This document shows positions 1 through 43,060 of a DNA stretch of 49,537 nucleotides, piece by piece. The notes beneath the pieces are model-generated. The model did no database searches, was not told where the DNA came from, and saw only the letters and a program-made list of their open reading frames with translations. Position 1 is the stretch's first letter. Every line of letters starts with the position of its first letter. Made by a program: the position numbers and the translations under genes. Origin of the DNA: Methyloversatilis sp. XJ19-49 (GTDB lineage Bacteria > Pseudomonadota > Gammaproteobacteria > Burkholderiales > Rhodocyclaceae); the NCBI RefSeq assembly GCF_024580145.1, contig NZ_JANINI010000006.1, positions 1 to 49,537 of the forward strand, given 5' to 3'.

Positions 1-959
<959 letters not shown>

Positions 960-976
960 TCATCGGACGCACGCCA

Positions 977-996
977 AGGTGTCTCGCGAGACACCT
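977..996. promoter_or_regulatory. 20-bp perfect palindrome, likely activator site
   Basis: AGGTGTCTCGCGAGACACCT is a perfect 20-bp palindrome in the thiC-porin gap. Its core TGTCTC...GAGACA recurs upstream of acoX (6985-7012). It lies about 130 bp upstream of a -24/-12 promoter, a normal distance for an enhancer-binding protein. AcoR as the binder is inference from that recurrence. Confidence 0.6.
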
Positions 997-1019
997 GCGA
1001 CGCCCTTCGTGCGGTCGAT

Positions 1020-1069
1020 ACAGATGTCGCAGTTTCTCGAGCTTCGCCAAGACATCTGTCGCATGTCTC
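1020..1069. promoter_or_regulatory. Second enhancer-like element with TGTCGCA repeats
   Basis: ACAGATGTC (1020-1028) and GACATCTGT (1051-1059) form a perfect 9-bp inverted repeat with a 22-base spacer. Overlapping it are two direct copies of TGTCGCA (1025-1031 and 1057-1063), then TGTCTC (1064-1069). The same two half-site types occur before acoX. The rest of the gap 756-976 shows nothing I can name. Confidence 0.5.
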
Positions 1070-1126
1070 TCCGGGTGAATCTCAAGGGCCGGGAAAAATA
1101 CCCTGTCAATTCAATGCTGTGAAGGT

Positions 1127-1142
1127 TGGCATGGATTCTGCC
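1127..1142 (+). promoter_or_regulatory. Sigma-54 (-24/-12) promoter for the porin/PQQ-dehydrogenase unit
   Basis: TGGCATGGATTCTGCC has the invariant GG (1128-1129) and GC (1140-1141) separated by exactly ten bases, with TGGCA matching the -24 consensus. The -12 box is CTGC instead of TTGC. Transcription would start near 1153, giving a 5' leader of about 70 bases to the porin ATG. The upstream palindromes and the nearby sigma-54 activator gene support the call. Confidence 0.6.
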
Positions 1143-1224
1143 CTTGTGTTCTCCGACGAAGGTGTCGCCGAAAGCGGCGCCGCGTCGAAGCTCGAAGTTT
1201 CGACATCAACAATCGGAGGGGAGT

Positions 1225-2406
1225 ATGAAAAAGAAGATCTCTGGCGCGTCGGCGCAGGGCGCACGCAACGCATGCACGCTGGCAGCGGCAGTCGCTGCGG
1301 CAATGATGATGGTTCCCGGTGCGGCGCAAGCCGACATCGTGATCGGTGAAGTGGCCGGTACCAAGCTGTCGATGTTCGGCATCATCGACGTTGGTCTGCT
1401 GTACAACAGCAAGGCCAACGCCAGCGGCGACAGCAAGACTTCGATGGAAACCAGCGGTCTGCGTCAGACCGTGATCGGCTTCAAGGGCGAACGCGAACTG
1501 CAGCCGAATCTCACTGCGTTCTTCAATCTCGAATCGCACTTCGACACCAACGACGGTTTCCTGCACGGCACCGGTGATGCGCCGCGCGGCGGTACGAACA
1601 ACACGCCGCTGTTCCGGCGTCAGGCGAATCTGGGTGTGCGCGGCGACTGGGGTAGCGTGACGGTCGGCCGTCAATACGGCCCGGCACTGCTGGCCCACAT
1701 CGGTACCGAACCGCGTGCCTTCAAGGAGCAGTTCTCCAACCTGTATGCGTGGGCCTATGGTCAGTTGTTCACGACCGCCAATGCCGCGGGCGGCGATCGC
1801 AACACCAACAACGATGTGGGTATTTTCTTCAGCAATGCCGTGCAGTACAGACATACTGTCGGCCCGGTGAATTTCGGCGTGCTGTACGCGTTCGGCGGTC
1901 AGCCCGGTTCGGCCAAGGACAACAGCTCGTATGCCGTGGGCGCGACCTACAACGGGCCGATCACGCTGTCCGCGTCCTACCAGGCGATGAATGACGAACA
2001 GACCGGCAAGAGCAACATCGAGCACACGTCGCTCGGCTTCGCGATTCCGTTCGGCGACTTCATCTGGAAGAACAACTGGATGAATGCCAAGAACGACGCG
2101 CGCACCGGCGCCGAACTGGCCGACATCAACGGCTTCGGCACGGGCCTGGACTGGAAGTGGCACGCCAAGAATTCGGCCACGGTGGCGTACTACATCAACA
2201 AGGACGACAGGAACAAGACCGACGAAACGAAGTTCCTCGTCATCAGCAATGACTACCAGTGGCGGCCGGACACGACGCTGTACGTGCAGTTCGCGTACGC
2301 CGATGCCGATGCGGGCGCCACGCTGCGCACCAGCATCGTCGCTGCAGGCGTGACCGCGGGCGAGAAGAGCACGCTGCTCAATGTCGGCCTGAATTTCATG
2401 TTCTGA
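1225..2406 (+). CDS. Outer-membrane general porin (Gram-negative/Neisseria type)
   Basis: This is a 393-residue porin for diffusion of small solutes across the outer membrane. ATG 1225 is preceded by a strong GGAGGGG. Longer in-frame starts (1126) would lie inside the promoter. A signal peptide with a hydrophobic core ends at AQA-36 before DIVIG. The mature protein starts with the TKLSMFGIIDVGL strand typical of betaproteobacterial porins. It carries GFKGERELQPNLTAFFNLE and VTVGRQYGP and ends in NVGLNFMF, with the terminal Phe used by the BAM machinery. It is the first gene of the unit with the PQQ dehydrogenase, so an entry channel for the alcohol substrate is a fair inference. Substrate preference cannot be read from the sequence. 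Confidence 0.9.
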   Translation: MKKKISGASAQGARNACTLAAAVAAAMMMVPGAAQADIVIGEVAGTKLSMFGIIDVGLLYNSKANASGDSKTSMETSGLRQTVIGFKGERELQPNLTAFFNLESHFDTNDGFLHGTGDAPRGGTNNTPLFRRQANLGVRGDWGSVTVGRQYGPALLAHIGTEPRAFKEQFSNLYAWAYGQLFTTANAAGGDRNTNNDVGIFFSNAVQYRHTVGPVNFGVLYAFGGQPGSAKDNSSYAVGATYNGPITLSASYQAMNDEQTGKSNIEHTSLGFAIPFGDFIWKNNWMNAKNDARTGAELADINGFGTGLDWKWHAKNSATVAYYINKDDRNKTDETKFLVISNDYQWRPDTTLYVQFAYADADAGATLRTSIVAAGVTAGEKSTLLNVGLNFMF

Positions 2407-2425
2407 AGCAAAGCGACTGCTTGAC

Positions 2426-2447
2426 CACCCGGGGCTGCACCCGGGTG
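2426..2447 (+). other. Small intercistronic hairpin
   Basis: CACCCGG and CCGGGTG form a 7-bp stem with an 8-base loop between the porin and the PQQ dehydrogenase. No T-run follows. It may stabilise or attenuate the transcript so that porin and enzyme are made in different amounts. Confidence 0.4.
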
Positions 2448-2476
2448 TATGAACCCAAGTGAATGGAGATTGATAG

Positions 2477-4159
2477 ATGACTGCCTCACGCAACATGTTC
2501 CGCCTGTCTGCCGCTCTGCTGGCCGGATCGGCGCTGTCCTTCATGACCGCAGTACCTGCCATGGCGCAGGGCAAGGCCGGCTTTGAAGACCCGAACAACT
2601 GGCCCGAGTATCACCGCACCAGCAATGCCTGGCGCTTCAGCCCGCTGAACCAGATCACGCGCGAAAACGTGAAGAAACTGAAGGTCGCCTGGGTGCATCA
2701 GCCGGGCAACATCACGCACGGCCTGCAGGCGACGCCGATCGTGATCGATGGCGTGATGTACTCGATCTCGGCCAACAACAATGTGTGGGCGATCGATGCC
2801 GCCACCGGCAAGACGCTGTGGAACTACGCGCCGAAGCTCGACAAGATCGTCGACCAGGTGTTCTACGGTGCAGCCAGCCGCGGCGTGACCGTGGGCCGCG
2901 GCAAGGTGTTTCTGGGGACGCTGGACGGCCGCTTCATCGCGCTCGATCAGAAGACCGGCAAGGAGCTGTGGTCGACCCAGCTGACCAACCCGAAGACGCA
3001 GTACGGCGCATTATTCTCGGCGCCTCCGCAACTGGCCGGCAACGTGCTGTTCGGTGGTACCACCGGCGGCGACCAGCCGATCTCGGGCAAGATCTACGCG
3101 GTTAATGCCGACACCGGCAAGCCGGCATGGACTTTCGACGTCATCAAGAACGATCCGAAGAGCTGGCCGGGCGACAGTGGCAAGGTCGGTGGCGGCAGCG
3201 CCTGGATGCCGGGTACCTACGACGCGAAGACCGACACCATCTACATCGGTACGTCGAACGCTGCGCCGGACTACTACAACTACGACCGCAAGGGCGACAA
3301 CCTCTATACGGCTTCGCTGCTCGCGATCGAAGGCAAGACCGGCAAGCTGAAGTGGCACCGTCAGGAAGTCCCGAACGACTCGTGGGATTACGACTCGGCG
3401 TATGAAGCCCTGGTCGTGCAGAAGGACGGCAAGGATGTCATCGTCCATCTGAACAAGGGCGGCTTCGTGTTCGTCATGGACAAGAAGGACGGCGCGCTCG
3501 AAAACGTGTGGCAGTTCTCCGAGAACGTGAACTGGGTCAAGGGCATCGACCCGAAGACCGGTGCGCTGATCGATCCGGTCTACCCGGAAATCGACAAGAC
3601 CAAGACCTTCTGTCCGAACCTGCTCGGCGCGCGCAGCTGGAATCACGGCGCCTACAACCCGGGCACCGGCCTGTGGTACTCGCACGCGATGGAAGTCTGC
3701 AACGAAGTGGTCGCCGGCAAGGATGATCCGGACAACCTGAAGGCGGTGTCTGCGCTGTCGCTGGGCATCGAGTCGATCAAGCTGGTGGCGCCGCCGAACA
3801 GCAAGCCGCATGGCCGTCTGGACGCGCGTGATCCGCTGACCGGCAAGGTCAAGTGGTCGATCAAGTACGACATGCCCCCGCTGTCGTCGGTGCTGACCAC
3901 GGCCGGCGGCCTGGTGTTCACCGGCGATCTGGAAGGAAAGATCTTCGGTTACGACGCTGACACCGGCAAGGAACTGTGGTCCTTCAATTCGGGCTCCGGC
4001 CTGCGTGGCGGACCGGTCAGCTACTCCGTGAAGGGCAAGCAGTACATCGTGTTCCCGACCGGTCTGGGCTCGCATGCTCCGGGCTTCCTCGCAGGTGCAT
4101 TCCCGCAGATCAAGGATCTGCCGGGCGGCGCTGCACTCATCGCTTTCACGTTGGAGTAG
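2477..4159 (+). CDS. Periplasmic PQQ-dependent alcohol dehydrogenase (quinoprotein), DYD type
   Basis: This 560-residue quinoprotein oxidises an alcohol in the periplasm and passes electrons to a cytochrome c. A signal peptide ends near PAMAQG (residue 32). The rest is the beta-propeller of the methanol/ethanol dehydrogenase family, with repeated W-type blades such as DAATGKTLWNY, DQKTGKELWS and DADTGKELWSF. There is no heme domain, so it is type I. The catalytic aspartate is D304 in SWDYDSAYE. The second aspartate, D306, gives the DYD signature that in this family marks lanthanide-using enzymes; calcium enzymes have Ala, Ser or Thr there. N261 (GTSN) matches the metal-binding Asn. The metal-binding Glu appears replaced by D199 (GGD). 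The adjacent-cysteine pair that normally faces PQQ is absent: the segment reads FYGAASRG. Substrate is unknown. Acetoin genes nearby suggest 2,3-butanediol or a similar alcohol, while ethanol or another primary alcohol remains possible. Confidence 0.9.
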   Translation: MTASRNMFRLSAALLAGSALSFMTAVPAMAQGKAGFEDPNNWPEYHRTSNAWRFSPLNQITRENVKKLKVAWVHQPGNITHGLQATPIVIDGVMYSISANNNVWAIDAATGKTLWNYAPKLDKIVDQVFYGAASRGVTVGRGKVFLGTLDGRFIALDQKTGKELWSTQLTNPKTQYGALFSAPPQLAGNVLFGGTTGGDQPISGKIYAVNADTGKPAWTFDVIKNDPKSWPGDSGKVGGGSAWMPGTYDAKTDTIYIGTSNAAPDYYNYDRKGDNLYTASLLAIEGKTGKLKWHRQEVPNDSWDYDSAYEALVVQKDGKDVIVHLNKGGFVFVMDKKDGALENVWQFSENVNWVKGIDPKTGALIDPVYPEIDKTKTFCPNLLGARSWNHGAYNPGTGLWYSHAMEVCNEVVAGKDDPDNLKAVSALSLGIESIKLVAPPNSKPHGRLDARDPLTGKVKWSIKYDMPPLSSVLTTAGGLVFTGDLEGKIFGYDADTGKELWSFNSGSGLRGGPVSYSVKGKQYIVFPTGLGSHAPGFLAGAFPQIKDLPGGAALIAFTLE

Positions 4160-4171
4160 CAACGTTGGAAC

Positions 4172-4197
4172 CCCCGGCGCGTGGCTCCGCGCCGGGG
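4172..4197 (+). terminator. Strong hairpin after the PQQ dehydrogenase
   Basis: CCCCGGCGCG and CGCGCCGGGG form a perfect 10-bp stem with a 6-base loop, 12 bases after the stop codon. A T-run appears only about 45 bases later (4243-4250). It may be a partial terminator or a 3' stabiliser that lowers expression of the cytochrome gene. Confidence 0.6.
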
Positions 4198-4345
4198 TGG
4201 CATGTCTCCTCATTCACAGGCGGTTACTCATGTTGCTGCCTGTTTTTTTTCGTTCACACTGTTGCTGGGGTCTGCTGACATTCAATCGGGACGTGATGGA
4301 ATGTCACGAGACTCTGATTCGGAAACTCGACCAGGACTTGAAGCA

Positions 4346-4741
4346 ATGACTCATGAAACTCCTCGCAGCAATGCCAAAGGCCGGCTGACCGTATCCGCAC
4401 TGGTGATTGCCCTCGGCATGATCTGGGCCGCGCCGTCACCCGCCATGGCGACCGAAGACCCGATTGTTGCACCGTCCTTCGATCTGACCGATCCGGAGCG
4501 GATCGCCCTCGGCAAGAAGCGCTTCAACAAGACCTGCGCGGGCTACTGCCATGGTTCGGATGGCGTCGGCGGGCGCGCCCCCGATTTCAAGGGACGCACC
4601 GATCTGGCAGATGAAGAGGCTTTCCGCACGATCTTCCACGGACGTCGCACGTCGGACATCATGCCGCCCTGGGGCGCGGCGTTCTCGACCGATCAGATCT
4701 GGGAACTGGTGGCCTACATCAAGTTTCTCGGCACGCAGTAA
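4346..4741 (+). CDS. Small periplasmic c-type cytochrome with an unusual CX3CH heme motif
   Basis: This protein has 131 residues and is the probable electron acceptor of the PQQ dehydrogenase. ATG 4346 gives a clean signal peptide ending at SPAMA-35. An earlier in-frame ATG (4181) would add an unlikely leader overlapping the hairpin. The mature part of about 96 residues has one heme site reading TCAGYCHG. That places three residues, not two, between C64 and C68, with H69 as proximal ligand; the codons TGC GCG GGC TAC TGC CAT are unambiguous. M106 in DIMPPWG is the likely distal ligand, and the C-terminal helix WELVAYIKFLGTQ is typical of class I cytochromes. The Shine-Dalgarno site is weak. 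Confidence 0.85.
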   Translation: MTHETPRSNAKGRLTVSALVIALGMIWAAPSPAMATEDPIVAPSFDLTDPERIALGKKRFNKTCAGYCHGSDGVGGRAPDFKGRTDLADEEAFRTIFHGRRTSDIMPPWGAAFSTDQIWELVAYIKFLGTQ

Positions 4742-4765
4742 GGCGTGACCGGAAGGGCTGCAGTG

Positions 4766-4802
4766 TCCGTCCCGCAGCAGCGTGAGGCTGCTGCGGGACG
4801 GA
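4766..4802. terminator. Bidirectional terminator between cytochrome c and acoR
   Basis: TCCGTCCCGCAGCAGC and its complement form a perfect 16-bp stem with loop GTGAG. It is flanked by an outer pair AGGGCTG/CAGCCCT (about 4754-4821). It sits between two convergent genes. There is no long T-run, but stem length and position support termination on both strands. Confidence 0.75.
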
Positions 4803-4812
4803 TGCCACCGGT

Positions 4813-6864
4813 TCAGCCCTGCTGTGCGGTCCGCTCTGCGCTGTCGAGGTAGTTGGGCGCCACGATGCGCAGACGCGCCATCTTGCGGTAGAAGGTGGCG
4901 CGCGACATGCCGAGCTGGCGTGCCGTCTCGGTCACCTTCCAGTGATTGCGCCGCAATGCCTCCAGCATTTTCTGGCGCAGCTGCAGACACACTTCACTCA
5001 ACGGCTCGCCGCTGTCGTCTTCGCAGGCGTCGAACGAAATGGTGGCGGCGACCGGCTGCTGCTGGGGCGGTGGCGGCAGGGCGGCGCGCGTCGGCTTGTT
5101 GCCGGCGCGCAGCTCGTGCGGGAAGTGTTCGAGCCGCACCAGCGGACCTTCCGCAATGGCGCAGGCGTAGCGCACCGCGTGCCGCAACTGGCGGATGTTG
5201 CCCGGCCAGCTGTAGGCAAGCAGCACATCCATCGTCTCTGCCTCGATCGAAAGCCCGGTGCGTTCCATCGCGGTGCTTTCTTCCAGCATCACCTGTTCGA
5301 CCAGCGCGCGCTTGTCCTCGCGCTCGCGCAGCGGTGGCAACGTGAACGAGGCGCCGTTGAGGCGGTAGAACAGGTCTTCGCGGAAGCGCCCTTCGCGCAC
5401 CAGCTCCGGCAGGTCCTGGTGGGTGGCGCAGATCACGTGCAGGCGCACCGGCGTGGGCTGTTCGGCACCGAGCGGCACCACTTCGCCTTCGGCCAGCACG
5501 CGCAGCAGGCGGCTCTGCAGCGACAGCGGCATGTCGCCGATTTCGTCGAGGAAGAGGGTGCCGCCGTCGGACTGCAGGATCTTGCCCTTCGAGCCCTTGT
5601 TGCGCGCGCCGGTGAAGGCGCCGTCGCGGTAGCCGAACAGTTCGCTCTCGATCAGGCTTTCCGGAATCGCGGCGCAGTTGAGCGCGACGAAAGGTTGTTT
5701 GGCCCGGTCGCTGAAATCGTGGATGCCGCGCGCGAACGCCTCCTTGCCAGTGCCGGTCTCGCCCAGCAGCATGACCGGAATGTCGCGGTTGGCCACGCGC
5801 ACTGCGCAGCCCACATTGGACTTCACGCGCGGGTCGCCCAGCGCCAGGTGGCGGAAACCGCGTGGCGCCGTCAGGTCTTCCGCCTCGGCGACCGGCTTGG
5901 CGGCAATCTGCGGCAGCGTGCGTGCGTGCGGGGCGCGCAGCACGGCAAACAGCCGCTGTCCGGTGGCGAACATGCGCAGCGGGAACGGTGCGCCCGGGCT
6001 GGCGTGCGCGGCGGCCATGATGCCGTTGGCGGTGCATTCGAACAGGTCGTGCAGGTACTCGGCGCGACGCCCGTTGTGGTTGATCAGTTCGTGGCGCGCA
6101 CGCCGGTTGCCGCCGACGATGCGTCCGCTGTCGTCGAACGCGATCAGGTAGTCGGTCTCCACCGGCAGGAATTCGGCGATCGGGCCGAGTTGCAGTATCC
6201 AGTGGTTGCGCAGGCTGTAGTGGGCGTAGGCGTCCTCGATCAGGCGCGCCTTGTCGATCACCATGCGGTAGATCAGCAACTGGCTTTCGCGCTGCTCGGG
6301 CGAGTACAGGGCCGACGCATCGAGCACGGCGATCGGTTCGTCTTCCAGTCCCACGATGGGCACCGAACTGCAGGTGAAGCTGATGTTGTGGGCGCGGAAG
6401 TGTTCGCCGCGATGGACCAGCGTGGGCTGGCAGTCGATCAGGCTGGTGCCGACGCCACAGGTGCCCTCGTGTTCTTCCGCCCAGCAGGTGCCGTTGCGGA
6501 AGCCTTCGTCCTTCAGTTCGCGTTCGAGGTGCGGCACGGTGCGGAAATCGACCGTCACGCCCTGGGCGTCGGTCAGCAGCACGCAGTAGTCGGCCAGCAG
6601 CACCTGCTGATGCAGGCGCTCGACGCCTTCGCGCGCGATGCGCATGAAGGTTTCAAGACGGTCGCGATGTTCGCGCAGCTCGTAGGCGGTGACGACCTTC
6701 GGTGTCGTCGCCCGTCCGGGGTCGATCGAGTGCTTGTTCAACGACCGGTGCCACGAGCGCTTCAGCCGGTCGTGTTCCGCATGAAGCGGAGCGGATCGAC
6801 TGGGTGCTTCGATGGCCTTGAGTACCCGGCCGACGTGTTCCGAGATCGAGTGTCCGCGGTCCAT
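4813..6864 (-). CDS. acoR: AcoR-type sigma-54-dependent activator of acetoin catabolism
   Basis: This is a 683-residue enhancer-binding protein that activates sigma-54 RNA polymerase in response to acetoin or acetaldehyde. It has an N-terminal sensory region with a GAF-like fold (about 60-210: CVLLTDAQG, WAEEHEGTCGVGTSL), a PAS-like linker and a AAA+ domain. The AAA+ domain has Walker A GETGTGKE (368-375), the sigma-54 contact loop GAFTGA (415-420) and Walker B LFLDEIGD (438-445). A Fis-type helix-turn-helix follows (643-662, VTETARQLGMSRATFYRKM). The start is backed by GAGGAG. It lies between two operons that both carry -24/-12 promoters and shared palindromes, so control of both is likely. 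AcoR is the best family match because of the adjacent acoXABC. Confidence 0.9.
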   Translation of the reverse strand: MDRGHSISEHVGRVLKAIEAPSRSAPLHAEHDRLKRSWHRSLNKHSIDPGRATTPKVVTAYELREHRDRLETFMRIAREGVERLHQQVLLADYCVLLTDAQGVTVDFRTVPHLERELKDEGFRNGTCWAEEHEGTCGVGTSLIDCQPTLVHRGEHFRAHNISFTCSSVPIVGLEDEPIAVLDASALYSPEQRESQLLIYRMVIDKARLIEDAYAHYSLRNHWILQLGPIAEFLPVETDYLIAFDDSGRIVGGNRRARHELINHNGRRAEYLHDLFECTANGIMAAAHASPGAPFPLRMFATGQRLFAVLRAPHARTLPQIAAKPVAEAEDLTAPRGFRHLALGDPRVKSNVGCAVRVANRDIPVMLLGETGTGKEAFARGIHDFSDRAKQPFVALNCAAIPESLIESELFGYRDGAFTGARNKGSKGKILQSDGGTLFLDEIGDMPLSLQSRLLRVLAEGEVVPLGAEQPTPVRLHVICATHQDLPELVREGRFREDLFYRLNGASFTLPPLREREDKRALVEQVMLEESTAMERTGLSIEAETMDVLLAYSWPGNIRQLRHAVRYACAIAEGPLVRLEHFPHELRAGNKPTRAALPPPPQQQPVAATISFDACEDDSGEPLSEVCLQLRQKMLEALRRNHWKVTETARQLGMSRATFYRKMARLRIVAPNYLDSAERTAQQG

Positions 6865-6984
6865 GTCTTTCTCCTCACGAATATATACATCTGTCGAAAC
6901 ACCGCGTGCGACGAAGTCTGCCGTGGCGTTTCACTTTTGTGACTTGAGGGTAAGCCCTGTACCGCCTGAAATCAACGCGACGAA

Positions 6985-7013
6985 TGTCTCCGAAAAGTGA
7001 GACAGGTGTCTCA
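6985..7013. promoter_or_regulatory. Upstream activator site before acoX: triple TGTCTC/GAGACA array
   Basis: TGTCTC (6985-6990), GAGACA (6999-7004) and TGTCTCA (7007-7013) make two overlapping inverted repeats, with spacers of 8 and 2 bases. The array is about 150 bp upstream of the acoX -24/-12 promoter, a usual enhancer distance. The acoR-acoX gap is shared, so acoR autoregulation is also possible. Confidence 0.65.
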
Positions 7014-7022
7014 ATGGCTCGT

Positions 7023-7047
7023 TGTCGCAGCGAGCGCCGATGCGACA
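7023..7047. promoter_or_regulatory. Inverted repeat TGTCGCA-N11-TGCGACA before acoX
   Basis: This is a perfect 7-bp inverted repeat placed 10 bp after the TGTCTC array. The same half-site TGTCGCA occurs twice upstream of the porin gene. It is likely a second dimer site for the same activator; that assignment is inference. Confidence 0.55.
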
Positions 7048-7144
7048 GGTGGGCGGCCGCGTGTTGCGCCGATGCGCACAACATCCCGAAGAGCGCTTAA
7101 GAATCATCCGCTTGACGGTTCGGGTGACACTGTCGGGATGGCGC

Positions 7145-7160
7145 TGGCACGGCCGATGCA
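7145..7160 (+). promoter_or_regulatory. Sigma-54 (-24/-12) promoter of the aco operon
   Basis: TGGCACGGCCGATGCA matches the -24/-12 consensus at all but one strongly conserved position: TGGCAC, ten bases between GG (7146-7147) and GC (7158-7159), and ATGCA for TTGCA. The start point would be near 7171. acoXABC operons in other proteobacteria are known to be sigma-54 dependent and AcoR controlled. Confidence 0.8.
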
Positions 7161-7196
7161 ATGACACAGGTAACCAACGCCTGGAGTCGCATCGTC

Positions 7197-8240
7197 GTGC
7201 TGTCCGCCCCACCTCGTCCTGCCCTCGTCGGCATCATCGCGAATCCCGCATCGGGTCGGGACATCCGCCGCCTGACTTCGCGTGCGTCGGTGTTTCCGAA
7301 CGCCGAGAAGGCCAGCATGATGGTGCGGGCGATCGCCGGGCTGGAAGCGGCCGGTGTCCGCGATGTCATGATCATGCCGGACTCGGGCGGCATCTGCGGC
7401 CCGCTGTTCCGGGCGCTGTCGGTGACCACCGGTTCCCCGGTCACGGTGCAGCCGCGCTTCATCGACATGCCGGTCACCAGCTCGGCCGACGACACGCTGC
7501 GGGCGACCGAGCTGATGTGTCAGGCCGGTGCGGGCGCGATCATCGTGCTCGGCGGCGACGGCACGCATCGCGCCGTGGCGGCGCGCTGTGGCCAGGTGCC
7601 GCTGCTTGCGCTGTCCACCGGTACCAACAACGCCTTTCCCGAAATGCGTGAAGCCACGGTCGCCGGACTGGCGGCCGGCCTGCTCGCCACCGGCGCCGTA
7701 CCGGCCGATGTCGGCTTGCGGCGCAACAAGCTGCTGCGCGTGCGCTGCGATGACCGCACGGACATCGCCCTGGTCGATCTGTGCGTCACGCGCCACAACT
7801 ACGTCGGTTCGCGCGCCGTGTGGGACAGCGCGCTGCTGGAGGAACTGTTCGTCGCCTTCGCCGGGGCCGATGCGATCGGTCTGTCGGCGATCGCCGGTCA
7901 GCTCGAACCGGTCACCCGCAGCGCGCCGCATGGCCTGCATGTGCGCTGCGCCGACACGACGCTTACGCCGCAGCAGGTGATCGTGCCGATTGCCCCGGGA
8001 CTGATCAGCGCGGTCGGCATCCGCGAGTACGGTCGTCTGCTGCCCGGGCAGCCGGTCGTGCTCGCACCGCAGAGCGGCACCATCGCGCTCGATGGCGAGC
8101 GCGAGATCGAATTCGATCCGTCGAACCGCATCAGCGTCGAACTCGACCTGCACGGCCCGCTGACCATTGATGTCGCCGCCGTACTCGAAAACGCGGCGCG
8201 CCGACGCGTGCTGCGCCACTACGCAGGGAGCCCGGCATGA
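7197..8240 (+). CDS. acoX: Acetoin catabolism protein AcoX (NAD-kinase-like fold)
   Basis: This is an AcoX-family protein of about 347 residues from GTG 7197. It belongs to the ATP-NAD kinase superfamily, occurs in aco operons, and its exact reaction is unknown. It has the opening ALVGIIANPASGRDIRR and the glycine-rich nucleotide motif IIVLGGDGTHR. The segment LSTGTNNAFP is also typical. The in-frame ATG at 7161 would precede the transcription start predicted from the -24/-12 promoter. I therefore prefer GTG 7197, which has GGAG ten bases upstream. The stop overlaps the next ATG (ATGA at 8237-8240), indicating translational coupling. Confidence 0.85.
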   Translation: MLSAPPRPALVGIIANPASGRDIRRLTSRASVFPNAEKASMMVRAIAGLEAAGVRDVMIMPDSGGICGPLFRALSVTTGSPVTVQPRFIDMPVTSSADDTLRATELMCQAGAGAIIVLGGDGTHRAVAARCGQVPLLALSTGTNNAFPEMREATVAGLAAGLLATGAVPADVGLRRNKLLRVRCDDRTDIALVDLCVTRHNYVGSRAVWDSALLEELFVAFAGADAIGLSAIAGQLEPVTRSAPHGLHVRCADTTLTPQQVIVPIAPGLISAVGIREYGRLLPGQPVVLAPQSGTIALDGEREIEFDPSNRISVELDLHGPLTIDVAAVLENAARRRVLRHYAGSPA

Positions 8241-8386
8241 GCCGCGTGCGCGCCCTGTCCCGTCTCTCCCCGGAGGTGCCGGCGCCTGCCGCCAGCGCCT
8301 TCGTGCCCGGTTCGTCCGGCCAACCGCCCGCAACTGCCGGAGATCAGCGGGCTTGTCATTCCATCCACAACGAGGAGCACCCATGA
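8237..8386 (+). CDS. Possible 49-residue ORF coupled to acoX and acoA
   Basis: This open frame starts in an ATGA overlap with the acoX stop and ends in an ATGA overlap with the acoA start (TGA 8384-8386). It exactly fills the 142-bp gap. The predicted peptide is Pro/Ala/Ser rich (MSRVRALSRLSPEVPAP...) with no recognisable domain, and its last codons contain the acoA Shine-Dalgarno. It could be a real small protein, or only a reading frame that keeps ribosomes moving between the two genes. I cannot assign a function. Confidence 0.35.
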   Translation: MSRVRALSRLSPEVPAPAASAFVPGSSGQPPATAGDQRACHSIHNEEHP

Positions 8387-9357
8387 GCAGTTCATTGACC
8401 AGGGAAGGCCTGCTGCAGGCCTACCGGACCATGCGCACGATCCGGGAATTCGAGGAACGTCTGCACGTCGATTTCGCCACTGGCGAAATCCCCGGCTTCG
8501 TCCACCTGTATGCCGGTGAGGAAGCGTCGGCAACCGGCATCTGCATGCACCTGAACCGCGACGACTACATCGCCAGTACCCACCGTGGCCACGGCCACTG
8601 CATCGCCAAGGGCGTCGATCCGGTCGGCATGATGGCCGAGATCTGGGGCAAGCGCACCGGCACCTGCAAGGGCAAGGGCGGCTCGATGCACATCGCTGAT
8701 CTTGACGTCGGCATGCTGGGTGCCAATGGCATCGTCGGCGGTGGCGGCCCGCTGATCTGCGGTACCGCGCTGGCGTCCAAGCTGCGCGGCAGCAACAACG
8801 TCGGCGTGTGCTTCTTCGGTGATGGCGCGTCCAACCAGGGCACGATTTTCGAGGCCATGAATCTGGCAGCCGTGTGGAAGTTGCCGGTCATCTTCGTCGG
8901 CGAGAACAACGGCTATGCCGAAGCGACCGCCAGCAAATTCTCGGTCGCCTGCGAAAACATCGCAGACCGCGCCTCAGCCTTCGGAATGCCGGGCGTGATC
9001 ACCGACGGCTTTGATTTCTTCGCCGTGCATGAAGCGGCCGGCGAAGCGGTCAAGCGTGCCCGCGAAGGTGGCGGACCTACGCTGCTCGAAGTGAAGCTGT
9101 CGCGCTACTACGGCCACTTCGAAGGCGACCAGCAGACCTACCGTGCACCGGGCGAAGTGCAGAAGCTGCGCGAAACCAAGGACTGCCTGATGCAGTTCGC
9201 ACGTCGCGTGACGTCTCGCGGCGAACTGTCGATGGCCGAGCTCGAAGCCATCGATGTCGAGGTGAAGACCCTGATCGACGCATCGGTGGTGAAGGCCAAG
9301 GCAGATCCGCTGCCCTTGCCCGAAGACCTGATGGCAGACGTCTACGTCTCTTACTGA
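8383..9357 (+). CDS. acoA: Acetoin dehydrogenase E1 component, alpha subunit
   Basis: AcoA is half of the thiamine-diphosphate E1 that cleaves acetoin into acetaldehyde and a hydroxyethyl unit bound for acetyl-CoA. The protein has 324 residues. It carries the ThDP motif from GDG (146-148) to NN (175-176), plus the family segments HLYAGEEASATGICMHL and STHRGHGHCIAKG. The alpha subunits of pyruvate E1 are close relatives, but the neighbouring acoX, acoR and hydrolase-type acoC identify this as acetoin dehydrogenase. ATG 8383 is preceded by CGAGGAG. Confidence 0.93.
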   Translation: MSSSLTREGLLQAYRTMRTIREFEERLHVDFATGEIPGFVHLYAGEEASATGICMHLNRDDYIASTHRGHGHCIAKGVDPVGMMAEIWGKRTGTCKGKGGSMHIADLDVGMLGANGIVGGGGPLICGTALASKLRGSNNVGVCFFGDGASNQGTIFEAMNLAAVWKLPVIFVGENNGYAEATASKFSVACENIADRASAFGMPGVITDGFDFFAVHEAAGEAVKRAREGGGPTLLEVKLSRYYGHFEGDQQTYRAPGEVQKLRETKDCLMQFARRVTSRGELSMAELEAIDVEVKTLIDASVVKAKADPLPLPEDLMADVYVSY

Positions 9358-9390
9358 ACCCACGCCACACGCTGACAGGAGAAATATCAG

Positions 9391-10401
9391 ATGGCACGAA
9401 AGATCACTTACCAGCAAGCCATCAACGAGGCGCTGGATCAGGAAATGGCACGCGACCCGAGCGTCATCGTCATGGGCGAAGACGTGGCCGGCGGCGCCGG
9501 CGCACCGGGCGAGGAAGACTCGTGGGGCGGCGTGCTCGGCGTCACCAAGGGCTTGTATGCGAAGCACCCTGGGCGCGTGCTCGACACGCCGATTTCTGAA
9601 TCCGGTTACATCGGTGCCGCGGTCGGCGCAGCCTGCAACGGCATGCGTCCGGTGGCCGAGCTGATGTTCATCGATTTCATGGGCGTGTGCTTCGACCAGA
9701 TCTTCAACCAGGCCGCCAAGTTCCGCTACATGTTCGGTGGCAAGGCGAAGACGCCGGTGGTCATCCGCGCCATGTACGGCGCCGGTTTCCGCGCCGCTGC
9801 GCAGCACTCGCAGTGCCTTTACAACATCTTCACCCACATCCCCGGGCTGAAGGTGGTGCTGCCGTCGAATCCGTATGACGCGAAGGGCCTGCTGATCCAG
9901 TCCATCCGCGACAACGACCCAGTGATCTTCCTCGAACACAAGGCCCTCTACACGATGGAAGGCGATGTGCCGGAAGAGAGCTACATCGTGCCGTTCGGCG
10001 AAGCCGCCGTGGTGCAGGAAGGTGACGACGTGACCATCGTGGCCTTCGGCCGCATGGTCAATTACGCCAAGGATGCGGGTGCCAGCCTGCGCAAGAAGGG
10101 CGTCCAGTGCGAAATCATCGATCCGCGCACGACCTCGCCGATGGACTTCGACACCATTCTCGAAAGCGTCGAGCGCACCGGTCGTCTGGTCATCGTCGAT
10201 GAATCGCACCCGCGCTGCAGCATGGCGTCCGACGTGTCGGGCTTCATCGCGCAGGAAGCGTTCGGCGCCCTCAAGGCACCGATCCAGATGGTGACCGCAC
10301 CGCACGTCCCCGTGCCCTTCGCAGCGTCGCTCGAAGACCTCTACATTCCCAGCCCGGCGCGCATCGAAGAAGCCGTGATGCGCGTCAAGGAGTATCGCTG
10401 A
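9391..10401 (+). CDS. acoB: Acetoin dehydrogenase E1 component, beta subunit
   Basis: AcoB is the beta subunit of 336 residues that completes the E1 heterotetramer with AcoA. It shows the transketolase-type pyrimidine-binding domain (VIVMGEDVAGGAGAPGEEDS, DTPISESGYIGAAVG, ELMFIDFMGVCFDQ) and the C-terminal transketolase domain (DVTIVAFGRMV, EIIDPRTTSPMDFDTI, VDESHPRCSMASD). AGGAG lies upstream of ATG 9391. The stop overlaps the acoC start by one base (TGATG). Confidence 0.94.
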   Translation: MARKITYQQAINEALDQEMARDPSVIVMGEDVAGGAGAPGEEDSWGGVLGVTKGLYAKHPGRVLDTPISESGYIGAAVGAACNGMRPVAELMFIDFMGVCFDQIFNQAAKFRYMFGGKAKTPVVIRAMYGAGFRAAAQHSQCLYNIFTHIPGLKVVLPSNPYDAKGLLIQSIRDNDPVIFLEHKALYTMEGDVPEESYIVPFGEAAVVQEGDDVTIVAFGRMVNYAKDAGASLRKKGVQCEIIDPRTTSPMDFDTILESVERTGRLVIVDESHPRCSMASDVSGFIAQEAFGALKAPIQMVTAPHVPVPFAASLEDLYIPSPARIEEAVMRVKEYR

Positions 10402-11510
10402 TGTCCTCGATTCTGACCGTCACCATGCCCAAGTGGGGCTTGTCCATGCAGGAGGGCAAGGTCAACCTGTGGCTGAAGGAAGTCGGTGACACGATCGCTC
10501 CGGGCGAGGAAATCATCGAAGTCGAGAGCGAGAAGATTTCCGGCGCCGTCGAGGCGGCCGTCACCGGCGTGCTGCGCCGGCAGGTCGCCCAGCCGGACGA
10601 GGTGCTGCCGGTTGGCGCCCTGCTCGGCGTGATTGCCGACGCCGACGTGTCGGATGATCTGATCGATGATCTGATCGCCCGCTTCCAGGCGGAATTCGTG
10701 CCGCCGACCGACGACGAGGCCGATGCCGGACCGCAGACGCAGACGGTGCAGGTCAATGGCCGGCAGTTGCGCTATCTGAAGCGCGGTGACGGCGGCACGC
10801 CGCTGCTGCTGATCCACGGCTTCGGTGGCGATCTGAACAACTGGCTGTTCAACCATGAAGCGCTGGCCGCTTCGCGCGCCGTCTATGCGATCGATCTGCC
10901 GGGTCATGGCGCATCGACCAAGGTCACCGGTGCGGCGTCGCTCGACGATCTGGCCGATGCGGTGAGCGGGTTCATGGAGGCGGTCGGCATTACATCCGCC
11001 GACGTCGTCGGTCACTCGATGGGCGGCGGCGTGTGCCTTGCGCTGACGCGCCGCGCGCCGCAGAAGGTCAAGTCACTGACGCTGATCGCGAGTGCCGCTC
11101 TGGGCAGCGACATCAACGGTGCCTACATCGACGGCTTCGTCGCCGGCAACACGCGCAATGCACTCAAGCCGCTGCTGGCGCAGCTCTTTTCGGACGCCGG
11201 TCTGGTCACGCGTCAGCTGATCGACGACATGCTCAAGTACAAGCGGCTCGAAGGAGTGGACGAGGCACTGGCGACGCTGGCCGGCGGACTGTTCCCCGCT
11301 GGCCGTCAGTCGGCTGTGCTGGCTGATGTCGCGGCAGCAAGCGGCAAGCCGGTGCTGGTGATCTGGGGCGAGAACGACCGGATCATTCCGGTCGCGCACG
11401 CTTCGGCCATTCCGTCGGCCAGGGTGGTGGTGCTGCCGGCACAGGGCCACATGGTGCAGATGGAATCGGCCAGTGAAGTGAACAAGCTGATCGGCGAGTT
11501 CACAAGCTGA
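10401..11510 (+). CDS. acoC: Acetoin dehydrogenase E2: lipoyl domain fused to alpha/beta hydrolase
   Basis: AcoC has 369 residues in the aco-specific form. Residues 1-80 are a lipoyl domain with the lipoylated lysine K45 in VESEKISG. Residues 125-369 are an alpha/beta hydrolase with LLIHGFGGD, nucleophile S206 in GHSMGGG, and a C-terminal catalytic His in GHMVQM. This hydrolase-fold E2, in place of the usual catalytic domain, is known from proteobacterial acetoin systems. No E3 gene (dihydrolipoamide dehydrogenase) follows, so E3 must be shared with another complex. Start and stop fit the coupled operon. Confidence 0.92.
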   Translation: MSSILTVTMPKWGLSMQEGKVNLWLKEVGDTIAPGEEIIEVESEKISGAVEAAVTGVLRRQVAQPDEVLPVGALLGVIADADVSDDLIDDLIARFQAEFVPPTDDEADAGPQTQTVQVNGRQLRYLKRGDGGTPLLLIHGFGGDLNNWLFNHEALAASRAVYAIDLPGHGASTKVTGAASLDDLADAVSGFMEAVGITSADVVGHSMGGGVCLALTRRAPQKVKSLTLIASAALGSDINGAYIDGFVAGNTRNALKPLLAQLFSDAGLVTRQLIDDMLKYKRLEGVDEALATLAGGLFPAGRQSAVLADVAAASGKPVLVIWGENDRIIPVAHASAIPSARVVVLPAQGHMVQMESASEVNKLIGEFTS

Positions 11511-11544
11511 ATACGAACGGAGCACCAACGGAGCCCGACCCGGG

Positions 11545-11642
11545 CCCCTGTTGAGCAGTCAGACCGTCCGCCCCGAACAGGGGATGGACAGGGCGGAGCA
11601 TCCGTTGCGGGTGTTCCGCCTCGCTGCGGCATGCGCCGCAGC
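11545..11642 (+). other. Structured leader between acoC and lipA
   Basis: CCCCTGTT (11545-11552) pairs with AACAGGGG (11576-11583). GGCGGA (11592-11597) pairs with TCCGCC (11615-11620). GCTGCGGC and GCCGCAGC (11623-11642) make an 8-bp hairpin with loop ATGC. The lipA Shine-Dalgarno follows at once. It may be an attenuator or processing region separating aco from cofactor genes; I recognise no riboswitch class. Confidence 0.4.
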
Positions 11643-11662
11643 AACCCGACGAAGGACAAGAA

Positions 11663-12613
11663 ATGAATTCAGCAGTCGTGGGAGAAGGCCTGCGCGGACG
11701 CGACAAGCTGGCCCGCATTCCGGTCAAGGTCCGCGAAGACGTGGCGTCGCCGGCGAAACCTGCCTGGCTGCGCGGCCGTGATCAGGACACGCCGGCCGTG
11801 CGCGCGCTGCAGGGCGTGCTGCGTGACCACGCACTGCATACGGTGTGCGAGGAAGCGGCCTGCCCGAACATCGGCGAATGCTTCGGTCGCGGCACCGCGA
11901 CCTTCATGATCCTCGGTGCCATCTGCACGCGCCGCTGCCCGTTCTGCGATGTGTCGCACGGACGGCCGCTGGCGCCGGATGCCGACGAGCCGCAGCGCCT
12001 GGCCCACACGGTGGCGGCGATGAAGCTGCGCTATGTCGTGATCACCTCGGTCGACCGCGACGACTTGCGCGACGGCGGCGCTGCGCACTTTGCGCAGTGC
12101 ATGGCCGACATCCGCGCGGCGTCGCCCAACATCACGATCGAGGTGCTGACACCGGATTTCCGTGGCCGCGAGGCGGCCGCACTCGACGCGCTGGCGGTGT
12201 CGCCGCCGGACGTGTTCAACCACAACATGGAAACCGTGCCGCGCCTGTACCGCGAGGTCAGGCCCGGCGCGAGCTACGAAGGCTCGTTGAAGCTGATCCG
12301 CGATTTCGGCGCGCGCTTCCCGGGCGTGCCTACCAAGACCGGCCTGATGCTCGGTCTCGGCGAAACCGAAGACGAAGTGGTCGAGGTGATGCGTGACCTG
12401 CGCGCGCACGGCTGCGACCTGCTGACGCTGGGTCAGTACCTGCGTCCGTCGCCAGCGCACCTGCCGGTGATCGAGTACATCTCGCCGGCACGCTTCGATG
12501 CGCTGCGCGAAAAGGCGCTCGAGCTGGGTTTCAGCGAGGTGGCCGCGGGGCCGCTGGTGCGCTCGTCCTACCGCGCCGACGTGCTGCATCAGGCGCATGC
12601 CGATCATGACTGA
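11663..12613 (+). CDS. lipA: Lipoyl synthase
   Basis: LipA is the radical SAM enzyme that inserts two sulfurs into octanoyl groups to make lipoyl cofactors. The protein has 316 residues. It has the auxiliary cluster cysteines C62, C67 and C73 ([12 protein letters not shown]) and the radical SAM cysteines C88, C92 and C95 (CTRRCPFC). Family segments [17 protein letters not shown] and [10 protein letters not shown] are present, and the conserved C-terminal RSSYRA follows. ATG 11663 has AAGGA upstream. Its place right after acoC, whose lipoyl domain needs this cofactor, suggests a local supply role, although it may also be the cell's main lipoyl synthase. The stop overlaps thiS by 8 bp. Confidence 0.95.
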
Positions 12614-12824
12614 TCCGCGCCCTTCACTGGTCACCGTCAATGGGCAGATCGAGCGGCTGGACGCCGTGATGTCCGTGGGCAGTCTGCTCGACGGCAAGGC
12701 TTTGCGCACACGCCGCATCGCGGTCGAGCGCAACGGCGAAATCGTGCCGCGCAGCGCGTTTGACTGCACCTGGCTCAATCACGGCGATCGCGTGGAAATC
12801 GTCGTCGCAGTCGGAGGAGGTTGA
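12606..12824 (+). CDS. thiS: Sulfur carrier protein ThiS
   Basis: ThiS is a 72-residue ubiquitin-like carrier. Its C-terminal Gly-Gly (VVAVGGG end) is thiocarboxylated and donates sulfur for the thiamine thiazole. It begins [10 protein letters not shown], contains [14 protein letters not shown] and the [11 protein letters not shown] strand, and ends in GG exactly as the family requires. ATG 12606 lies inside the end of lipA. The bases coding the terminal glycines also contain the thiG ribosome site (GGAGGAGG), so the two are tightly coupled. Confidence 0.92.
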
Positions 12825-12825
12825 A

Positions 12826-13647
12826 GTGAATCCACCCTTGAGCCCCTGTCTGAGTGACTCGCTGGTCATCGGCGGCCAGACGTTCGAATCGCGTCTGCTG
12901 GTGGGCACCGGCAAGTATCGCGACCTCGCCGAAACCGCACGCGCGCTGGACGCCAGCGCGGCCGAAATCGTCACCGTGGCGATCCGTCGTGTGCCGCTGA
13001 CGGCGCGCGACGGCGCGCCCGGGCTACTCGATGCGCTGCCGGTCGGTCGCTATACGCTGCTGCCCAATTCCGCCGGCTGCTACACCGCCGATGACGCGGT
13101 GCGCACGCTGCGGCTCGCGCGCGAACTGCTCGACGGCCACGATCTGGTGAAGCTCGAAGTGCTGGGCGACTCGAAGACGCTGTTTCCCGATATGCCGGAA
13201 ACGCTGCGCGCGGCCGAAGTGCTGATCCGCGACGGTTTTCGCGTGATGGTCTATTGCTCGGATGACCCGATACAGGCGCGCGTGCTCGAAAGCATGGGCT
13301 GCGTGGCGGTGATGCCGCTGGCCAGCCTGATCGGCTCGGGCATGGGAATCCTGAATCCGTGGAACCTGAAAATCATCATTGCCGAGGCCGGCGTGCCGGT
13401 CATCGTCGATGCCGGCATCGGCACCGCGTCGGACGCGGCCGTGGCGATGGAGCTCGGTTGTGACGGCGTGCTGATGAATACCGCGATCGCGCATGCGCGT
13501 GATCCGGTGCTGATGGCCAGCGCCATGCGCCACGCCGTCGCGGCCGGTCGCCAGGCGTTTCTGGCCGGGCGGATGGACGCAGTGCCGTACCGCGCCGTGG
13601 CGTCGTCGCCGCAGGTCGGACTGATCACCCAGATGCAAGAGATGTAA
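12826..13647 (+). CDS. thiG: Thiazole synthase ThiG
   Basis: ThiG forms the thiazole phosphate of thiamine from deoxyxylulose phosphate, dehydroglycine and ThiS-thiocarboxylate. The protein has 273 residues from GTG 12826, two bases after the thiS stop and just behind GGAGGAGG. It is a TIM barrel with [19 protein letters not shown], and the Schiff-base lysine in [11 protein letters not shown]. Phosphate-binding segments [13 protein letters not shown] and [18 protein letters not shown] follow. thiO, thiE and thiF are not adjacent. Confidence 0.95.
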
Positions 13648-17834: not shown

Positions 17835-17920
17835 GCGAATCCGCGATAATCCGGCATCGCCCGGCGCACGACCATCAGGTCGCCGTGCCGCATTCCCCTT
17901 GCAGACTTCCGGAGATACGC

Positions 17921-39134: not shown

Positions 39135-40382
39135 ATGGCCACCCTGCTGTCCATACAGGAAGCGGAACCGCCGCTGCCGCATGCGCCTTCGTGGTCCGCC
39201 TTTCTTGAACTCGGTTTTCGCCCGGTCTATCTGGCCGGCGCGCTGTGGGCGCTGATCGCGGTCGGGCTGTGGATCTTCGCGCCGCACTGGCTTGACGGCC
39301 CGCTCGCCGGCGTGGCCTGGCACGCACATGAAATGCTTTGGGGCTTCGTGGCCACCATCGCGGTCGGCTTCCTGATGACGGCCGGCGCCGCCTGGACCGG
39401 CATCAATCCGGTGCAGGGTCGCGCGCTGGCGATCCTGTGCGCACTGTGGCTGGTGGCGCGGCTCGGCTTTCTCGCCGGTGACGGGACACCATTCCTGATC
39501 GCCACCCTCGCCGAGCTGCTGTTCTTCGCACTGGCCGCCGCAGCACTGCTGCGCGCCGTCGTCGTGTCGCGCAATGCCCGCAACTATGGCGTCCCGGTGC
39601 TGCTGCTGGCACTGGGCGTGTCCGACGCCCTGTTCCTGCTGGCCGCGCATGACGGCGACTACGCACTGCTGATGCGCCAGTTCAACGCCGGTCTGCTCAT
39701 CATGACGCTGATCGCGCTGCTGGTGGCGCGCCGGGTCATTCCGTTCTTCGCCACGCGTGCCGTGCCGGGCCTGCAGATTCCGATGCAGCTGCGCAGCGGC
39801 CACATCCAGCTCGGCGCCAGCGGCATCGCCGTGGTGTGCCTGCTGGCCGATCTGCCGATCGCGCAGGCGCTGGCCCTCGCGGTGGCTGGCGTCCTGTCGC
39901 TGCAGCACTGGGTCAGCTGGAAGCCGCAGGCCGTGCTGCGCAAGCCGCTGCTGTGGATCCTGTATCTGGGCTACCTGTCGCTCGGCGTCGGCCTGCTGCT
40001 TGCTGCGGCATCCGTTGCAGGCTTCGGTGCGCGCCCGGCGCTGCACATTCACGTGATTGCCATGGGCGGTTTTTCGCTGCTCATCATCGGCATGATCACA
40101 CGCACCGCACTGGGTCATCTGGGGCGTCCGCTGGACGCCGATCGCAGCATGGTCGCCAGCTACGGGCTGGTGATCGCGGCCACCGTGCTCAGGCTGCTCG
40201 CGCTGCAGCCATCCGCCGCCGCCCTCCACCTGCTGCATGTTGCCGCGCTGCTCTGGGTGGCGGCGTTCGCGCTCTATCTGTGGCGCTTCGTGCCGATGAT
40301 GATCCGGCCGCGTGCAGATCGTCCGGCGCCGGCCGCCGCACCGGTGGCCACGCCTGTGACCATCGTCCGCCCGTGGCACTGA
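39135..40382 (+). CDS. nnrS: NnrS family membrane protein
   Basis: NnrS is a heme- and copper-containing membrane protein that protects against nitrosative stress. The protein has 415 residues with about twelve hydrophobic segments. It shows family motifs FLELGFRPVYLAGALWA, WHAHEMLWGFVATIAVGFLMTAGAAWTG (as two parts), LLIMTLIALLVARRVIPFF, and HIHVIAMGGFSLLIIGMITRTALGHLGRPL with its conserved histidines. CGGAG precedes the ATG. Expression is probably anaerobic and NO-induced through the FNR and NsrR sites upstream. Confidence 0.93.
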   Translation: MATLLSIQEAEPPLPHAPSWSAFLELGFRPVYLAGALWALIAVGLWIFAPHWLDGPLAGVAWHAHEMLWGFVATIAVGFLMTAGAAWTGINPVQGRALAILCALWLVARLGFLAGDGTPFLIATLAELLFFALAAAALLRAVVVSRNARNYGVPVLLLALGVSDALFLLAAHDGDYALLMRQFNAGLLIMTLIALLVARRVIPFFATRAVPGLQIPMQLRSGHIQLGASGIAVVCLLADLPIAQALALAVAGVLSLQHWVSWKPQAVLRKPLLWILYLGYLSLGVGLLLAAASVAGFGARPALHIHVIAMGGFSLLIIGMITRTALGHLGRPLDADRSMVASYGLVIAATVLRLLALQPSAAALHLLHVAALLWVAAFALYLWRFVPMMIRPRADRPAPAAAPVATPVTIVRPWH

Positions 40383-40385
40383 ATC

Positions 40386-43048: not shown

Positions 43049-43060
43049 CGATTGGTTGTC

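Follow-up and report, generated by a model that had tools for sequence, protein, structure and literature searches.

The window analysed here, a 49,537-nt stretch of the genome of Methyloversatilis sp. XJ19-49 (contig NZ_JANINI010000006.1), carries a quinoprotein unit next to an acetoin operon. Over positions 1–13647 the gene order is thiC (minus strand), porin, pyrroloquinoline quinone (PQQ) dehydrogenase (PQQ1), cytochrome c, acoR (minus strand), acoX, acoA, acoB, acoC, lipA and thiG. We consider it rather probable that these genes form one AcoR/sigma-54 regulon for the use of vicinal diols, most likely 2,3-butanediol, by a periplasmic quinoprotein and then AcoABC. A joint periplasm-to-cytoplasm pathway is likely and well supported, because the gene order is conserved, the control sites are common to both units, no butanediol dehydrogenase (BDH) was recognised in the host genome (4.1 Mb, 45 contigs) and the nearest fold to that of PQQ1 is PedH. 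Bacteria of this group are common in activated sludge and freshwater.

Organization of the locus

The porin (1225–2406, plus strand; PF13609, 139 bits), PQQ1 (2477–4159, plus; 560 aa; PF01011, 278 bits) and the cytochrome c (4346–4741, plus; PF13442, 55 bits) had signal-peptide-like N-termini when read by eye, consistent with export. The host genome also has pqqE. A G+C-rich inverted repeat without a T run, likewise read by eye, lies between the PQQ1 and cytochrome genes (4172–4197) and perhaps sets their expression ratio.

AcoR (4813–6864, minus; PF00158, PF02954) is a predicted sigma-54-dependent activator, with GAFTGA, the sigma-54 contact motif, at residue 415. The open reading frame of acoX (PF01513) begins with an ATG at 7161. 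This ATG lies upstream of the predicted transcription start, so the gene probably starts with the GTG at 7197 (7197–8240, plus). It is followed by acoA (8383–9357, plus; PF00676), for the E1 alpha subunit dependent on thiamine pyrophosphate (TPP), acoB (9391–10401, plus; PF02779, PF02780), for E1 beta, and acoC (10401–11510, plus), for a lipoyl domain fused to an alpha/beta hydrolase. AcoC passed the curated acetoin dehydrogenase E2 model NF011457 (490.5 bits, cut-off 307). E1 alpha and beta, AcoX, an AcoR-like activator and a sigma-54 promoter, as expected of an aco operon, were thus all found in the window, and acetoin cleavage is the function predicted for AcoABC from its gene families.

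Downstream are the genes for lipoyl synthase (lipA, 11663–12613, plus; TIGR00510 over cut-off) and thiazole synthase (thiG, 12820–13647, plus; PF05690, 348 bits). Upstream, the 5′ part of thiC (1–755, minus; position by tblastn) is divergent from the porin, and the gene runs off the contig. An earlier note on this DNA had placed a porin, a PQQ dehydrogenase and a cytochrome c beside acoR and acoXABC, and family models found every one of these genes. The extent it gave, 1127–11510, proved too short, as the unit also takes in thiC on the upstream side and lipA and thiG on the downstream side.

Conservation of gene order

Named genomes were scanned for PQQ1, and 37 loci were obtained. Two from Acidobacteria (30–31% identity) were set aside, leaving 35 with PQQ1 identities of 56–98%, the closest named relative being at 98%. 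The gene order that had been expected to recur in related genomes was complete, from porin to thiG, in 8/8 close relatives (six named Methyloversatilis and two metagenome-assembled genomes, L039–L046), and it was partly retained in Zoogloea, Aromatoleum and Azoarcus. The fetched stretch included acoX/acoA at 18 of the 35 loci and only acoR, near the stretch end, at three (L057, L059, L061). Six others, here called type II loci (L050, L056, L058, L064, L072, L073), have PQQ1 together with another TPP-dependent E1 pair, 44–48% identical to AcoA/B; this pairing was seen in Denitromonas, Thauera and Cognatazoarcus, and L065 carries both E1 kinds. No porin and no acoX match was found in the stretches of Aromatoleum L060 and L063.

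Some loci hold additional genes. In type II locus L072 (2099–8126), the E1 pair, a lipoate ligase, a Gluconate_2-dh3 protein and a GMC oxidoreductase are divergent from porin-PQQ1, and L056 has a separate E2 core. Three Zoogloea loci (L048, 4560–8127; L049, 5757–9314; L062, 3012–6611) contain a further porin-PQQ-cytochrome unit, whose quinoprotein is 28–32% identical to PQQ1.

Among 150 family genomes (host included; overlapping with the named loci), 21 had PQQ1 at 64% identity or more, and all 21 had an E1-alpha match, as did 38 of the 129 genomes without PQQ1. Both genes were on one contig in 19 of the 21, within 8 kb in 18 and ~16 kb apart in G140. In G094 and G017 they were on separate contigs, each gene within 7 kb of its contig's first base. 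Of the 14 genomes with type I AcoA (at least 64% identity), 13 also had PQQ1. Fisher tests, uncorrected for kinship, gave 2e-10 for co-occurrence of PQQ1 with E1-alpha and 1e-12 for PQQ1 with type I AcoA. Since the genomes are related, the recurring pairing of PQQ1 with two unlike E1 types is a better argument than these tests. Second PQQ1-like copies (52–55%) in G060, G104 and G140 were left out of the counts. In the wider class, PQQ1 was found in one of 368 other genomes (E < 1e-110), at 44% identity.

Shared control sites

Nine upstream regions (the window and L039–L046) were aligned to obtain promoter footprints. The key bases of the sigma-54 boxes were invariant at the porin and at acoX, and each box was preceded by two tandem palindromic sites. 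At the porin-PQQ unit, the box TGGCATGGATTCTGCC (1127–1142, plus; score 19.7 of 23.2) had TGGCA and TGC invariant in 9/9 regions. Its upstream sites are GATACAGATGTCGC (1017–1030, plus), a putative AcoR site with a similar site in 8/9 sequences within the 280 nt aligned, and AAGACATCTGTCGC (1049–1062, plus), whose ACA-NN-TGTCGCA core was found in 9/9; the two follow the form xxxACA-NN-TGTCGCA. The acoX box TGGCACGGCCGATGCA (7145–7160, plus) had the top score in the window. It is preceded by GAGACATTCGTCGC (6977–6990, minus), of the form GNGACG-N-ATGTCTC, and by the palindrome GAGACAGGTGTCTC (6999–7012, plus), of the form TGAGACAG-N-TGTCTCA, each form present in 9/9. Motif matches in the window numbered six, with 0.70 expected; five rows (four sites) belonged to these two promoters, and the sixth lay at 17914.

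Sites of the GAGACA-NN-TGTCTC kind with sigma-54 boxes occurred at both promoters in most compared loci. In Zoogloea (L048, L049, L054, L062, L069), box and site were present at the porin-PQQ1 unit, the further porin-PQQ unit and acoX. Type II loci had sigma-54 boxes on both divergent promoters and sites mostly of the form GCGACA-NN-TGTCGC on both sides, in both directions in 8/8 stretches (L050, L056, L058, L064, L072, L073, L094, L096; L056 and L096 are apparently one contig). The GAGACA/GCGACA split is not clean, as the sites at the window porin combine both half-site types.

An ad hoc sigma-54 score gave 34 matches in the window and 28.4 in simple shuffles. Because this score alone barely beats shuffles, we relied on conserved footprints and on pairs of box and site. 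A paired scan covered 41 stretches (678 kb in all, with some overlap) and required a box score of at least 20 and a site 60–260 bp upstream. It returned 70 pairs, a raw count without shuffled control, most of them, by our reading, at porin/PQQ, acoX or E1 promoters. Pairs elsewhere were at L062:8656 (minus), L067:108 (minus), L065:940 (minus), L046:5449 and L055:2874. Minus-strand pairs facing away from the porin occurred in L051, L052, L053, L057 and L061, towards thiC in the last two.

The porin-PQQ1 and acoXABC units thus look co-regulated, judging from their promoter sequences. The shared promoter architecture described in the earlier note was borne out by the boxes at 1127–1142 and 7145–7160 and the related palindromes upstream of both, and independent regulation, which would have spoken against its proposal, is not what the control sites common to both units suggest.

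The quinoprotein PQQ1

PQQ1 matched PF01011 and scored 439 bits against TIGR03075 (PQQ methanol/ethanol dehydrogenase), below the cut-off of 480.05. Its structure model (mean predicted local distance difference test score 77; predicted template modelling score 0.82) points to the PQQ propeller fold of type I alcohol dehydrogenases, with the active-site Trp, Asn and Asp present. Foldseek with this model placed PedH first (E 1e-47, TM score 0.83); MDH and QEDH also matched. The key residues are W243, N261, D304 and D306, the last two forming the D-x-D that is a lanthanide marker of PQQ dehydrogenases according to extracts of PMC11996626. PQQ1 is, from this motif, probably lanthanide-dependent. 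Trp243, Asn261, Asp304 and Asp306 were invariant in 29 sequences and Lys327 nearly so, in a set that omits L026, where the second Asp is Gly.

Two positions differ from other PQQ alcohol dehydrogenases: FY at 129–130 replaces the vicinal Cys pair (CC), and D199 stands where the others have the metal-site Glu. A subfamily alignment was built from 47 rows of at least 60% identity, identical rows dropped. The Cys pair was absent in all 46 rows covering the site (FY in 45, LF in L029; L070 is incomplete there), and CC was present in 5/5 aligned PDB rows, two of them PedH. The metal-site Glu was Asp in 47/47, and D-x-D was kept in 46/47, the exception again being L026. The more distant relatives L071 (56%) and L077 (44%) also lack CC and retain the Glu.

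A second quinoprotein unit of the host lies on contig C7 (L092, 6207–10004), with PQQ2, an SBP-3 protein, a CXXCH cytochrome and an HbpS-like protein. Upstream of this unit lie the sigma-54 box TGGCATGGATGATGCA and two palindromic sites, the first deviating from the motif at one position and the second at two. On the single contig of the G005 genome, the PQQ2 unit is in the same cluster, beyond thiC. PQQ1 was also considered as the Mdh2 or XoxF of the genus and set aside as unlikely: other host PQQ genes (contigs C3 and C14) fit these enzymes better by motif and, by our reading of extracts of PMC5023235, by analogy with the table for strain FAM5.

A cytochrome c with a CX3CH motif

In the window cytochrome, CAGYCH (4535–4552, codons 64–69) is the sole haem motif, of the type CX3CH and not CXXCH. 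CAGYCH or CAAYCH was found in all 32 Rhodocyclales loci examined (a set without L053, L055 and L070), and a cytochrome c motif followed PQQ1 in 34/34 loci examined. CX3CH was the sole haem motif seen in the window, L039–L046, L060, L063, L064 and L065; other loci add a canonical one. Within the group, quinoproteins without CC go with CX3CH cytochromes, including the further Zoogloea PQQ unit (CAAFCH, 3/3), and PQQ2, which has CC, goes with a CXXCH cytochrome (CQQCH, 3/3). L071 and L076, outside the group, break this rule, having canonical CXXCH although their PQQ enzymes lack CC. Extracts of PMC11024163 report that CXXXCH binds haem in MmcA of Methanosarcina. The Rhodocyclales loci offer a natural set of cytochromes c, some with CX3CH as the only haem motif seen.

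Butanediol and acetoin enzymes of the host

No cytoplasmic BDH was recognised in the host genome by sequence searches. The annotated 2,3-butanediol dehydrogenase of a Paracoccus aco cluster, used as query at E 1e-50, matched nothing in 149 of the 150 family genomes, host included; the set held a single match, at 36%. Against TIGR02415, the butanediol dehydrogenase model of the short-chain dehydrogenase/reductase (SDR) family, the best host score was 160.8 bits (cut-off 304.35), and the SDR beside Paracoccus acoC gave a best match of 37%. The host has eight ADH_N proteins, and none of the six run against NCBIfam was named BDH. Acetolactate decarboxylase was not found in the host genome, so acetoin is likely a food and not a product; a butanediol-producing pathway was set aside on the same ground.

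A duplicated thiC

The full thiC orthologue in L093 matched ThiC NF006763 (1066.5 bits). The thiC duplication was noted from the window (1–838, minus), L147 (3684–5770) and L148 (1–895). No THI element (RF00059) was matched by Rfam in the window at the gathering score, nor was one present at the porin-linked thiC of L041, L042, L044, L046, L066, L049, L057, L061 and L069. The element was present at thiC of Aromatoleum L060 and L063 and of L149. Scans showed a sigma-54-like box facing the window thiC (TGGACTGGAAATTGCT, 823–838, minus). A TGG-N10-GC box was read by eye in 10/10 linked thiC promoters. At a score of at least 18, the sigma-54-like box was upstream of 9/9 linked riboswitch-free thiC genes (18.2–20.7) and of one of eight riboswitch-bearing ones (L149, 18.5).

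G005 has a second thiC with a THI element elsewhere in its genome, 99.1% identical over 649 aa. Twins that likewise bear a THI element and lie elsewhere in the genome were 99.5% identical over 639 aa in G118 (L155 and L044, apparently one genome), 100% over 267 aa in G060 and 95.2% over 251 aa in the host, where both copies are cut by contig ends. Contigs C42 and C45 start inside the two thiC copies, and the assembly was probably interrupted by this repeat. In the thiC tree, copies paired within the genome for G118 and G060, and those of G005 and the host fell into a single Methyloversatilis group, a pattern that suits gene conversion or repeated duplication. The pair would represent a duplicated biosynthetic gene, one copy obeying end-product feedback and the other possibly obeying the demand of a catabolic regulon.

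Proposed pathway and alternatives

In the pathway we propose, the porin would admit the diol, most likely 2,3-butanediol, and PQQ1, in the host also PQQ2, would oxidize it to acetoin in the periplasm, probably with a lanthanide in the active site. The dedicated CX3CH cytochrome c would take up the electrons and deliver them to the respiratory chain, and acetoin would enter the cytoplasm and be cleaved by AcoABC to acetyl-CoA and acetaldehyde. AcoR would sense acetoin or a relative, bind the GAGACA-type palindromes and switch on both units, and the linked lipA and thiG, together with a thiC copy no longer under TPP feedback, would supply the cofactors of AcoABC. Substrate, metal, AcoR binding, electron path and thiC activation are the parts that we infer. 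If the pathway is true, the first step in the breakdown of a common fermentation product has been moved out of the cytoplasm and made lanthanide-dependent, and its electrons bypass NADH.

We offer a wider proposal more tentatively. A self-contained acetoin regulon of Rhodocyclales may have swapped the cytoplasmic BDH for new CC-less, lanthanide-type periplasmic quinoproteins with CX3CH cytochromes, drawing on as many as three families of quinoprotein, each perhaps for a different stereoisomer of the diol. The activator of this regulon may also drive the riboswitch-free thiC; thiamine would then be made without TPP feedback just when the TPP-dependent acetoin dehydrogenase is produced. Despite their different control regions, the two thiC copies may be held alike by gene conversion.

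Several observations weigh against the diol pathway. For the shared control, the pattern GAKACANNTGTCKC is matched exactly in only two places of the 4.1-Mb genome, the porin and acoX promoters; as it was derived from them, this does not count as independent evidence, which comes instead from the PQQ2 unit, the Zoogloea loci and the type II loci. With one mismatch, the genome count of the motif was 39, close to the 27 of the reversed control, so the genome-wide motif was not used alone. Only one of the nine porin promoters of the window's group (L045) reached a box score of 20, the window having 19.7. Sites on the acoX/acoA side of L060, L063 and L067 all had two mismatches, as did those on the PQQ side of L065, and L070 had none on its acoX/acoA side.

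For the linkage, no aco gene was found in the fetched stretch at eight of the 35 PQQ1 loci. Five of these are contigs below 10 kb and two (L051, L053) are longer; the remaining one, L066, is apparently the contig of L097, where acoR and acoX are ~12–16 kb from PQQ1. G065 has type I aco without PQQ1, and PQQ1-like genes on plasmids of Skermanella (63%) and Rhodococcus (44%) have no aco genes annotated adjacent. For the chemistry, quinohaemoprotein alcohol dehydrogenases ranked first and PedH fourth when PQQ1 was compared with PDB by sequence; PQQ1 is only 32–33% identical to PedH, which is itself promiscuous. Two of the eight ADH_N proteins of the host are unclassified. Extracts of PMC8427195 report that neither meso- nor (2R,3R)-butanediol was used through the quinoproteins of P. 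putida. Of the pathway set out in the earlier note, the joining of the two units stands, through conserved order and common control sites; that the quinoprotein acts on 2,3-butanediol is still only what we infer.

The unlikely alternative that comes closest is that the periplasmic unit acts on a different alcohol, for example ethanol, and that AcoR couples both routes through their common acetaldehyde, a product of AcoABC. PQQ dehydrogenases of this fold are promiscuous (extracts of PMC8427195 and PMC11996626), and the closest matches to PQQ1, by fold and by sequence, include ethanol dehydrogenases. However, in M. universalis a PQQ ethanol-dehydrogenase homologue, by our reading the Mdh2 of the FAM5 table, is already essential for one- and two-carbon alcohols (extracts of PMC5023235). 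According to the same extracts, strain FAM5 does not express its acetoin genes on methanol or methylamine, which fits an inducible unit. The pairing with E1 lyases also recurs, with two E1 types.

Somewhat less probable still is a general module for vicinal diols and alpha-hydroxyketones whose real substrate is 1,2-propanediol, 2-methyl-2,3-butanediol or something larger, above all in type II loci. Their different E1 pair would suit this, as would the lipoate ligase, Gluconate_2-dh3 protein and GMC oxidoreductase downstream in L072, the separate E2 core of L056 and the additional PQQ family, with a like promoter, of three Zoogloea loci. The window E2, however, exceeds the curated acetoin dehydrogenase cut-off. 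It is quite improbable that PQQ1 has lost its PQQ dehydrogenase activity and now binds or senses some other compound: its sub-threshold TIGR03075 score (439 vs 480 bits) and the subfamily-wide replacement of the Cys pair and the metal-site Glu would fit, but the invariance of Trp243, Asn261, Asp304 and Asp306, the near-invariance of Lys327 and the cytochrome c motif that follows in 34/34 loci examined argue for a working enzyme. That the two units are chance neighbours under independent regulation is made very unlikely by their conserved order, the same kind of sites at both promoters in several genera and, at type II loci, a half-site shift in the direction of GCGACA on both sides, despite separate transcripts and weak sequence signals at single promoters.

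Other features of the window

An NnrS gene followed by one for an Rrf2-family regulator (39135–40826) is suggestive of a nitric oxide response. At 43052–44518 lies a MoxR ATPase gene of the MoxR-vWA-beta-propeller ternary type (PF20030).

Comparison with known systems

The PQQ1 unit resembles lanthanide PQQ dehydrogenases of the XoxF/PedH type in D-x-D, fold, export signal and partner cytochrome, and differs from them in having FY for CC, a metal-site Asp for Glu and a CX3CH cytochrome. PQQ2, in contrast to PQQ1, has retained CC, and its partners are an SBP-3 protein and a CXXCH cytochrome. In the open-licence literature searched, no report of a linkage between PQQ dehydrogenase and aco genes was found.

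Plasmid acoXABC clusters of Mycetohabitans (L078), Paraburkholderia (L079), Azospirillum (L080), Paracoccus (L111), Chelatococcus (L112) and Caballeronia (L113) share the acoXABC order with the window (6/6), with a sigma-54 regulator annotated in five and lipA or a lipoate ligase in four. Unlike the window, they have no PQQ dehydrogenase or cytochrome annotated adjacent in the six stretches, for which the plasmid gene table is incomplete. The premise that aco operons usually come with a cytoplasmic BDH applies to P. putida (extracts of PMC8427195) and, as an annotated gene, to one of the six plasmid clusters, that of Paracoccus; in two others acoC is followed by an SDR annotated as glucose 1-dehydrogenase.

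That a quinoprotein makes acetoin is already known. Extracts of PMC8427195 report that in P. putida KT2440 PedE (Ca) and PedH (La) oxidize (2S,3S)-butanediol to acetoin and are needed for growth on it. As in the window, AcoR adjoins acoX there, and the acetoin made by the quinoproteins feeds acetoin dehydrogenase. The P. putida quinoprotein genes (PP2674, PP2679) are outside the aco operon (PP0552–PP0556), which has an NAD-linked R,R-BDH. In the window, by contrast, PQQ1 lacks the vicinal disulfide, no BDH was recognised in the host genome, and the quinoprotein unit is linked to the aco genes and has control sites in common with them.

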